A stretch of 64,000 bases of DNA. Source: Bacteroidota bacterium (GTDB lineage: Bacteria; Bacteroidota; Bacteroidia; UBA8524). The stretch covers positions 1 to 64,000 of the forward strand of contig WBUH01000020.1 in assembly GCA_008933805.1 (NCBI GenBank), given 5' to 3'. The stretch's first letter is position 1. Each line of letters begins with the position of its first letter. The notes under the pieces are model-generated. The model saw only the letters and a program-made list of their open reading frames with translations. It did not search any database and was not told where the DNA came from. The position numbers and the translations under genes are program-made. Shown here in pieces: positions 47,206-49,408 of the stretch.

Positions 47206-48588
47206 TTATTTCTTATAAAATTTACCCGTTGCGGCTTGTACTCCTGTGCCCGAAAATTGGTAAAAATAAACTCCCGAAGGCATCAAGTCGGTTTCAACAG
47301 TAATACTGCCGATAGCACTTTCTACCGCCATGCTATTCACTATTCGTCCCAAAGCATCGGTAACCGTTAATGTTGTAAATGCCGTGTTCTCACCAAACGC
47401 TAGGGTAATATTGCTTGTTGCCGGATTAGGGTATGCGCTCACCTTGCTGGTAAATATTTGCTTAACTCCTGTATTCAACGGTTGTGATTTTAATTGAATT
47501 TCATCAATGTATAGTTTACTTCCCAAACTTGAGATTGACGCAGGATATTTTGAAGAAATAAACTCAAGTCGAAATGTATCAGGTGCTGTCATTGATTGAA
47601 AGGGTACTTCTACTCTTGTATAACTGCTTGCGGCTGCCAAAAATTTACCATTACCGCCTACTGAGTTTCCTTGATTAAACAAACTGATAAACACCACCGC
47701 CGAATCATTACCTACAGGAGTATATTTATAATAAAACACCAGCGTGTCTTGCATATTTGTAAAAGGTACTCCGCCACTCGGGCCTTGATCTTCGTTAAAT
47801 TTTCCGTTGGTTATGGCTGACGCATTGGCTCCGTTATCACTCAAATCTTTGGTCTCCATCAATACGGCATAGTCTCCCCTGTATTTATCCGTTGTTCTTG
47901 AAACACCTGAGCCTCCCCTTTCCCAATTGGTAGCCACATCGTAGGTTTTAGCTATCCAATTATCAAAATTTCCGTTTGGAATAGCCTGTGTTATACCTGT
48001 ACCGGTAAAGGCCAACTCATCAATTGTAAGCGTGCTGCCCGGCAATACGCCAATTTCATCAATTGCATTGCTAGAGGCTGCTGCAATAATAATAGAATCG
48101 GGTACTGCAGCTAATGATAATGGGAATGCAAACCGCTTAAAGGTGCTTTGTGTGCCGCCAAACTTAAATAAATCCAAACCAATCACAATCCCGTTCTTTT
48201 TACATACAATCAATATAAGGCCTGAATCACCCGCACCTATATTGCATTGGTAATATCCTGTAATACTATCCGGCTTTTGCGAGTACGGGAAACCACCTTG
48301 TCCCGCAATAGGGTCGCCCTGAGTGGAATTAAAATATCCGAGAAAGGTATCGGTTGCTGAGGCTTTGGTTTCCAACTTAATGGCGTTTCCGTTTTGTCCA
48401 GTCACTTTTGAAACCGTAACCAATCCTCCTGAGTTGCTTTGCTCCTCGTTAGCTGTAAACCATCCAGAAGGGTCTTCGTAGTTGGTGATGCTCCAGTTTT
48501 CTAATGCTCCGTTTTTAATAACGGGTTGCGCTATTGCACCGACAAAGGCAAATGCGCTTATAAGGCTAAGTAAAGTTTTTAGTTTCAT
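47206..48588 (-). CDS. Secreted two-domain protein with T9SS sorting domain
   Basis: A 460-aa T9SS cargo. After the signal peptide (ends near VGAIAQ) come two related beta-sandwich-like domains: the first begins KNGALENWSITNYEDPSGW, the second IPNGNFDNWIAKTYDVATNW near 215. Each contains a strand ending LYIDE or LTIDE, as in carbohydrate-binding jelly-rolls. The C-terminus (YPNPATSNITLAFG to GKFYKK) is the type A sorting domain. The 279-aa protein at 59297 has one such domain. Its promoter region carries a Crp-type operator, so expression is probably controlled by the Crp-like protein encoded next door. Confidence 0.85.
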   Translation of the reverse strand: MKLKTLLSLISAFAFVGAIAQPVIKNGALENWSITNYEDPSGWFTANEEQSNSGGLVTVSKVTGQNGNAIKLETKASATDTFLGYFNSTQGDPIAGQGGFPYSQKPDSITGYYQCNIGAGDSGLILIVCKKNGIVIGLDLFKFGGTQSTFKRFAFPLSLAAVPDSIIIAAASSNAIDEIGVLPGSTLTIDELAFTGTGITQAIPNGNFDNWIAKTYDVATNWERGGSGVSRTTDKYRGDYAVLMETKDLSDNGANASAITNGKFNEDQGPSGGVPFTNMQDTLVFYYKYTPVGNDSAVVFISLFNQGNSVGGNGKFLAAASSYTRVEVPFQSMTAPDTFRLEFISSKYPASISSLGSKLYIDEIQLKSQPLNTGVKQIFTSKVSAYPNPATSNITLAFGENTAFTTLTVTDALGRIVNSMAVESAIGSITVETDLMPSGVYFYQFSGTGVQAATGKFYKK

Positions 48589-48609
48589 AGTATTTGCATT
48601 TAGGTTTAA

Positions 48610-48617
48610 CAAACCTA
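48610..48617 (-). promoter_or_regulatory. -7 promoter box (TAGGTTTG) of the T9SS gene
   Basis: Minus-strand TAGGTTTG, 21 nt before the ATG at 48588. The predicted start of transcription is about 48604-48605. Confidence 0.5.
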
Positions 48618-48631
48618 CGCACTACAACTAT

Positions 48632-48661
48632 CTTATTTTGTGATATTTATCACAAAATAAG
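48632..48661. promoter_or_regulatory. Perfect palindromic Crp-type operator
   Basis: Two 14-bp arms (48632-48645 and 48648-48661) are perfect inverted repeats around TT. The core 48639-48654 is TGTGA-N6-TCACA, the classical CRP consensus. Its centre (48646.5) is about 42 bp upstream of the predicted start of the T9SS gene, a class II activator position, and about 138 bp upstream of the crp-like gene's predicted start. Confidence 0.8.
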
Positions 48662-48771
48662 AATGACCTTTCTCACGTAAAATTTATCGGGGGTATTTTA
48701 TCGTTTATGCAATCAATGCTGCTAAAAATTAAGTCTAGCGTTACGCACAAAACATTTATACTGTCTGATTG

Positions 48772-48779
48772 TATCTTTG
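48772..48779 (+). promoter_or_regulatory. -7 promoter box (TATCTTTG) of the Crp/Fnr gene
   Basis: Ends 5 nt before the ATG at 48785 and lies inside the upstream extension of the frame, so it decides the start; leaderless geometry. Confidence 0.58.
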
Positions 48780-48784
48780 CCAGT

Positions 48785-49408
48785 ATGCTGCCCCTTCCTA
48801 TACAAGAAAAACTGATTTTTAAAGATACAGCCCTACTTGATGAGATAAACCGATATGGCCGACTGAAAACAGTGGGCAAGGACGAAGCACTTATTAATAC
48901 CGGAGATGAAATTGTTTTTATACCCATTGTATTAAGCGGTTGCATACGGATTATACGACAAGATGAGGAAGGCCGCGAGGTATTCTTATATCACTTGTAT
49001 CCGGGGCAAACTTGTGCTATGTCGCTTACTTGCTGCCAAATAGGTAAAAAAAGTATGATAAAAGCCGTAGCCGAAGACGATACAGAGGTTTTGCAAATAC
49101 CTGTAGGGCAAACCGAAGACTGGTTTAAATATGCCGAATGGAAAACCTTTGTGAGCAACAACTACAACAACCGATTTGCTGAATTATTACAAGTGGTGGA
49201 TTTGATTGCATTTAGCAATCTCGATAAACAGTTGCTGCATTACCTTACCGAACGCAGCAAGGCCCTTACTACTAAAACACTGGATATTACCCACCAACAA
49301 ATTGCTGATGAACTGCATACCCACCGCGAGGTAATTAGCCGATTACTGCGTACGATGGAGCAAAAAGGATTGGTAAAATTAGGCCGTAACAGCGTAGAGC
49401 TGATATAA
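48785..49408 (+). CDS. Crp/Fnr-family transcription regulator
   Basis: A 207-aa regulator with a cyclic-nucleotide-binding-type beta-barrel (about residues 20-115), a dimerisation helix and a winged helix (about 150-205). The recognition helix reads THREVISRLLRTMEQ; Arg181, Glu182 and Arg186 occupy the places of CRP Arg180, Glu181 and Arg185, which read TGTGA. The ligand pocket lacks the usual RxS cAMP motif, and Cys53, Cys77, Cys83 and Cys84 are the only Cys, without the N-terminal cluster of FNR, so the signal is unknown. The start at 48785 is set by the -7 box. Confidence 0.9.
   Translation: MLPLPIQEKLIFKDTALLDEINRYGRLKTVGKDEALINTGDEIVFIPIVLSGCIRIIRQDEEGREVFLYHLYPGQTCAMSLTCCQIGKKSMIKAVAEDDTEVLQIPVGQTEDWFKYAEWKTFVSNNYNNRFAELLQVVDLIAFSNLDKQLLHYLTERSKALTTKTLDITHQQIADELHTHREVISRLLRTMEQKGLVKLGRNSVELI

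Follow-up and report, generated by a model that had tools for sequence, protein, structure and literature searches.

Organization of the locus

The window, the whole stretch of 64,000 nucleotides that was analysed, contains two divergent genes separated by a 196-bp gap (Table 1). The rightward gene encodes P0001, a protein that is placed in the Crp/Fnr family by matches to PF00027 and PF13545 above their cut-offs and whose AlphaFold model (mean pLDDT 85.8) is matched by Foldseek to the folds of CRP, FNR, and NtcA. Between the end of a TATCTTTG box and the ATG of this gene there are 5 nt (48772–48787), so that the transcript would be nearly leaderless. The leftward gene encodes P0002, a type IX secretion (T9SS) cargo protein by its sorting domain (TIGR04183, 38.2 bits against a cut-off of 23), with a signal peptide that was recognised by eye. 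Full-length homologues of P0002 with 34–46% identity are present in other Bacteroidota. A search with PADLOC gave no matches.

Table 1. Positions of the genes and predicted regulatory features in the window
Feature	Position	Strand	Basis or remark
Secreted T9SS cargo protein P0002, 460 aa, predicted target	47206..48588	−	Matches to PCMD (partial) and Por_Secre_tail
Predicted transcription start of the T9SS gene	48605..48605	−	From the −7 box by the position rule of PMC9723704
SigmaA −7 box TAGGTTTG (TAnnTTTG)	48610..48617	−	22 nt from the 14-bp core 48640–48653
32-bp palindrome, proposed operator (15-nt arms, 2-nt centre)	48631..48662	.	Repeat search; arms 48631–48645 and 48648–48662, 100% complementary
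Crp-type core TGTGATATTTATCACA	48639..48654	.	Centred at −41.5 relative to the predicted start of the T9SS gene
Possible second Crp-like site TGA-N6-TCA	48664..48675	.	23 bp between its centre and that of the operator
TAnnTTTG box TATCTTTG, possible promoter of the regulator gene	48772..48779	+	Would place the centre of the palindrome near −137
Crp/Fnr-family regulator P0001, 207 aa	48785..49408	+	cNMP_binding and HTH_Crp_2
Codons of Cys77 and Cys83-Cys84 (C-x5-CC, replaces the cAMP phosphate cassette)	49013..49036	+	Conservation in homologues
Recognition-helix codons Arg181-Glu182-Val183-Ile184-Ser185-Arg186	49325..49342	+	Motif H-R-E-V-I-S-R

The palindrome and the promoter of the T9SS gene

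An earlier note on this DNA had described a 30-bp palindrome with 14-bp arms in the gap. The palindrome is real, but its arms are 15 nt long, one pair more than was claimed. The core TGTGA-N6-TCACA that the same note placed within it is an exact match and the only one in the window. In the genome of 4.29 Mb the bare core has three exact matches, whereas about five are expected by composition, so the core alone is not significant.

The −7 box that the note had proposed for the T9SS gene is present on the minus strand. Because the sigmaA box of a flavobacterium covers −12 to −5 (PMC9723704), the predicted +1 is at 48605, with a 5′ UTR of ~17 nt, and the centre of the palindrome, 48646.5, is at −41.5. 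The start at 48604 and the distance of ~42 bp given previously are corrected accordingly, but the class II position that they implied stands. An evident TTG at −33 with normal spacing was not seen upstream of this box. Given a site at −41.5, a −7 box, and no evident −33 TTG, class II activation is the most likely mode of action.

Two other roles for the repeat were considered at this stage. As an inverted repeat it might form an RNA hairpin, acting as a terminator or attenuator, with a predicted stem of 14 bp (−15.7 kcal/mol, z −4.4), or it might be a chance palindrome. However, it is located between divergent genes, before the predicted start of either transcript, and so would be part of neither; it has no Rfam match; and two arms of 15 nt have an expectation of ~1e-5 by chance in the 196-bp gap. 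Palindromes also recur at one set distance from −7 boxes (see below). We consider both possibilities to be extremely improbable. The palindrome might also serve chiefly for autoregulation of the regulator gene, its proximity to the T9SS promoter being incidental, since it is within the divergent gap and a TAnnTTTG box is found just before the regulator ATG. Against this, its centre is ~137 bp upstream of the predicted start of the regulator transcript, and there is no plus-strand TAnnTTTG at the mirrored distance, whereas the minus-strand geometry is exact; we assign this role a low probability.

A second composite site in the genome

The earlier note had recommended scanning the genome for the same palindrome. 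The composite TGTGA-N6-TCACA-N21-TAnnTTTG has exactly two matches in the genome, as compared with 0.004 expected from base composition. They are the T9SS promoter and the promoter of a small protein with a YgaP-like transmembrane domain, the product of the only gene in the genome that matches PF11127, and in both sites the 14-bp core is 22 nt from the box. The third exact core (C16:65969) was set aside as it is inside an Fe-S-assembly-like coding region and has no TAnnTTTG box. A composite with one mismatch, TGTGATGTAAATTACA with TATATTTG, precedes a MarR-family gene adjoining a MATE transporter (L149, G000:C5:201862) and is a doubtful member of the regulon. Composites with two or three mismatches were rejected because, with few exceptions, they are coding or asymmetric, and they are fewer than in the reversed control (34 versus 70). 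No GGAACA-type composite with fewer than three mismatches was found in this genome.

Putative operators of homologous regulators

The spacing was examined in 136 homologous loci by a scan for 14-bp palindromes with at least six of seven pairs upstream of an exact TAnnTTTG, in which both sequence and spacing were left free. The matches peak at a spacing of 22 (24 matches, as compared with 0–7 and a mean of ~3 at other spacings; for perfect palindromes, 7 as compared with a maximum of 1), although these counts, like those for co-variation below, overstate the evidence because related loci are not independent. The class II position is thus supported by the exact geometry of the second promoter and by the peak in relatives: in both sites of the genome, and at the peak, the operator is predicted to be centred at −41.5, over the −33/−35 region of a sigmaA promoter.

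The letters of the operator differ among these loci. In close relatives (58–76% identity) the YgaP-like promoter has mostly GGAACAWWTGTTCC or GTAACAWWTGTTCC and not TGTGA. In relatives with an HREA helix (L067–L128 and others) a GGAACAWWTGTTCC or GTAACA... palindrome is conserved in the gap that follows the regulator gene, 22 nt upstream of a TAnnTTTG before the YgaP-like gene. The exact TGTGA palindrome was not found in 80 homologous loci (788 kb), and 9/10 matches were about as frequent there as controls. The earlier note had stated that its proposal would be refuted if orthologous loci lacked the palindrome. The exact TGTGA core is indeed absent from the 80 loci, but the geometry is kept and the letters co-vary, so a test worded for one sequence cannot be applied to an operator that, as compared here, has a fixed geometry and a different, co-varying sequence. 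Among nine other genomes with P0002 homologues, seven had a promoter that was readable (matched start), and none of these had such a palindrome; the wiring of the T9SS gene therefore looks lineage-specific.

Several other loci have related arrangements. In four relatives with a PREV helix (L133, L138, L144, and L145), CTGACGATCGTCAG-type palindromes are found 22 nt from TAnnTTTG, upstream of the regulator gene and on the minus strand. In L041, from the family of the window's genome, GTGATTTATATCAC is 22 nt from TAGTTTTG, 3.2 kb downstream of the regulator, and precedes a small predicted secreted protein, a possible further secreted target. In L152 (G000:C13:22508-22552) and L252, TGTCACATAGCTGACA and a TACCTTTG box have the same 22-nt spacing. 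They precede the gene for a small secreted protein, and a Crp paralogue with the ARQTTAR helix is encoded alongside, so this may be a further pair of regulator and operator built in the same way. In L034 (G041:C157) a gene for a T9SS-type PKD-repeat protein is divergent from the regulator, with no palindrome in the gap.

A possible tandem site was identified by searching, with a relaxed box, upstream of 66 such operators. TGA-N6-TCA occurs with its centre at distances of 22 (n = 6), 23 (n = 1, the window), 32 (n = 1), 33 (n = 3, including the YgaP-like promoter of the same genome), and 61 (n = 1), whereas five control dyads gave two matches in total. Sites centred exactly 22 or 33 bp upstream of the operator centre are present in L147, L107, L111, L113, L119, L124, L127, L076, and L079. 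Several of the loci with tandem sites are close relatives. Such distances correspond to two or three turns of the helix and suggest that another Crp/Fnr-type dimer binds the same DNA face.

The geometry also bears on the direction of control. P0001 might bind the palindrome but repress the T9SS gene, covering −33 until it is released by a signal; polymerase can be blocked by a site over −33, and known persulfide sensors such as CstR, SqrR, and BigR are repressors (PMC9774590). However, the 22-nt spacing is kept across many lineages, as expected for contact with polymerase, and no good TTG is visible at −33 with normal spacing. Activation is the usual effect of Crp/Fnr proteins bound at −41.5. 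We therefore regard repression as unlikely, and activation of the T9SS gene by P0001 as likely on this comparative evidence.

Co-variation of the operator with the recognition helix

Arg181, Glu182, and Arg186, which the earlier note had equated with the residues of E. coli CRP that read TGTGA, are found in P0001 within the H-R-E-V-I-S-R motif. Among operators with the 22-nt spacing, helices and half-sites form three groups. (i) S-R-V-V is associated with GTAAC...GTTAC in eight loci. (ii) P-R-E-V, S-R-E-V, and the H-R-E-V of the window are associated with GTGAT, GTGAC, or CTGAC in nine loci. (iii) H/Q-R-E-A is associated with GGAAC. In E. coli CRP, Arg180 reads G2, whereas Glu181 and Arg185 read the G4:C4 pair of TGTGA (PMC11253593), so the loss of the Glu together with that of the G:C pair is in the expected direction.

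In a tree of the 136 proteins, in which many forks are open, the window protein is within the HREA clade, and REV arose in this clade at least three or four times (the window, L076 with L100, L212, and L096). The operators are of the GTGA type in the window, L076, and L100, and in L212 a hybrid, CCAACAAATGTCAC, has GTGA in one half. L096 has an HREV helix yet retains the GGAACA-type operator GGAACATTTGTTCC, so that Val183 alone does not set specificity. The view that the Arg-Glu-Arg combination by itself specifies TGTGA has to be abandoned since dozens of H-R-E-A-x-x-R relatives use GGAACAWWTGTTCC; judging from these pairs, the residue after Arg-Glu (Val or Ala) also matters for the letters of the operator.

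Because the half-site letters follow the recognition helix, the operator is tied to P0001 and not to Crp proteins generally. This bears on the alternative that the cognate protein is another Crp/Fnr paralogue or factor and that the adjacency of P0001 is coincidental. The genome does encode three other HTH_Crp_2 proteins above the cut-off, but their helices (SQETAIR, ATETVIR, and ARQTTAR) lack R-E-x-x-x-R, which only P0001 has among the Crp-type proteins of the genome, and the operators of relatives co-vary with the helix of the P0001 subfamily itself; a paralogue is therefore as improbable here as simple autoregulation. The assignment of the palindrome to the adjacent regulator is strengthened by the second site, the spacing peak, and the letters that change with the helix, and the palindrome is very probably the operator of P0001 in a class II position.

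Putative signal

The cAMP contacts of E. coli CRP are E72, R82, T127, and S128 (PMC11253593). In an alignment with P0001 all four are replaced (E72 by S80, R82 by S90, T127 by L134, and S128 by L135), and the CRP equivalog model gives a score of 38 as compared with its cut-off of 266, placing P0001 outside the cAMP-responsive CRPs. The contact motif, previously described as not obvious, is absent, and the suggestion that the ligand is other than cAMP is supported by the comparative sequence evidence. In 43 homologues Cys77 and Cys84 are invariant and Cys83 is conserved in at least 90%, and the C-x5-CC motif is present in 125 of the 136 homologues. This loop has low confidence in the P0001 model (pLDDT ~64). 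P0001 does not have the four cysteines of an FNR [4Fe-4S] site, as only Cys77, Cys83, and Cys84 are conserved and Cys53 is not. The position of the CooA heme-ligand His, two after the Cys, is Met79 in the P0001 sequence itself.

Sulfur genes are present within 4 kb in 99 of the 126 homologous loci with enough flank, the families counted being rhodanese, YgaP-like, thioredoxin, MBL-rhodanese, TauE, OsmC, YeeE, and DUF6132; persulfide-dioxygenase-like genes are among these neighbours. A 123-kb background sample of the window's genome contained none of these families, and no sulfur gene is beside the regulator in the window. The YgaP-like (PF11127) gene is a conserved neighbour of P0001 homologues in many Bacteroidota, and in 41 of 62 HREA relatives it comes after the gene for the regulator. 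The loss of the cAMP contacts, the conserved Cys-x5-Cys-Cys, and the sulfur-transfer neighbours indicate that the P0001 subfamily probably responds to a sulfur or thiol-redox species and not to cAMP. A signal related to sulfur is plausible, and NO or general thiol stress would fit the same facts. Reactive-sulfur sensors belong to families other than Crp/Fnr, and no Crp/Fnr protein is named among them, in the pertinent part of a 2022 review (PMC9774590). A literature search with partial coverage, which may have missed Crp/Fnr papers, found no study of the P0001 subfamily.

Proposed mechanism

A P0001 dimer would bind the Crp-type core at −41.5 of the sigmaA promoter and, from this class II position, activate the divergent gene for the T9SS cargo, and through the identical arrangement it would also activate the YgaP-like membrane gene. 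P0001 would control a small sulfur-linked regulon to which the T9SS cargo gene was added in the lineage of the window. We are fairly confident of this scheme as a whole, comprising the P0001 operator, class II activation of both genes, and a sulfur or thiol-redox signal in place of cAMP.

A broader proposal is more tentative and, in our judgement, somewhat less probable than its opposite. Here, a widespread subfamily of Bacteroidota Crp/Fnr proteins would have come to sense reactive sulfur, in place of cAMP, via a Cys-x5-Cys-Cys loop. Its operator would have been recoded repeatedly among GGAACA, TGTGA, and GTAAC with changes in one or two helix residues, the −41.5 geometry being retained throughout. 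In the lineage of the window it would have gained a secreted T9SS target, so that sulfur stress would lead to the production of a surface protein.

For a common Bacteroidota Crp/Fnr subfamily that is uncharacterised as far as we have found, the analysis yields a regulon, an operator, and a class of signal that can be tested. The matched operators and recognition helices form a natural series in which a change of specificity can be traced residue by residue, and type IX secretion cargo is predicted to be linked to sulfur or thiol stress.

Comparison with known systems

P0001 resembles E. coli CRP at class II promoters in its fold, the Arg-Glu-x-x-x-Arg motif, the operator core, and the promoter position. 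It differs in the replaced cAMP contacts, the Cys-x5-Cys-Cys motif, the sulfur-gene neighbourhood of its subfamily, and the TAnnTTTG promoter, and also in the number of sites, since the regulon of E. coli CRP is global, whereas the P0001 genome has two exact composite sites. The cyanobacterial regulator NtcA, which senses 2-oxoglutarate and has the operator pattern GTA-N8-TAC, is related to P0001 in fold and sequence. The helix of NtcA has Arg-Val, which is also found in the SRVV relatives of P0001, and the GTAAC-N4-GTTAC of these relatives fits the NtcA pattern, whereas P0001 has Arg-Glu and a TGTGA operator. The best sequence match among solved structures is a Crp/Fnr protein of Eubacterium rectale (PDB 3dv8; E 7e-33 in a profile search), which has the helix HREVITR and Cys residues in the same loop as P0001. 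CstR, SqrR/BigR, and FisR belong to different families (CsoR, ArsR, and Fis, respectively) but share with the P0001 subfamily both paired cysteines and the company of genes for rhodanese, persulfide dioxygenase, and sulfur exporters.
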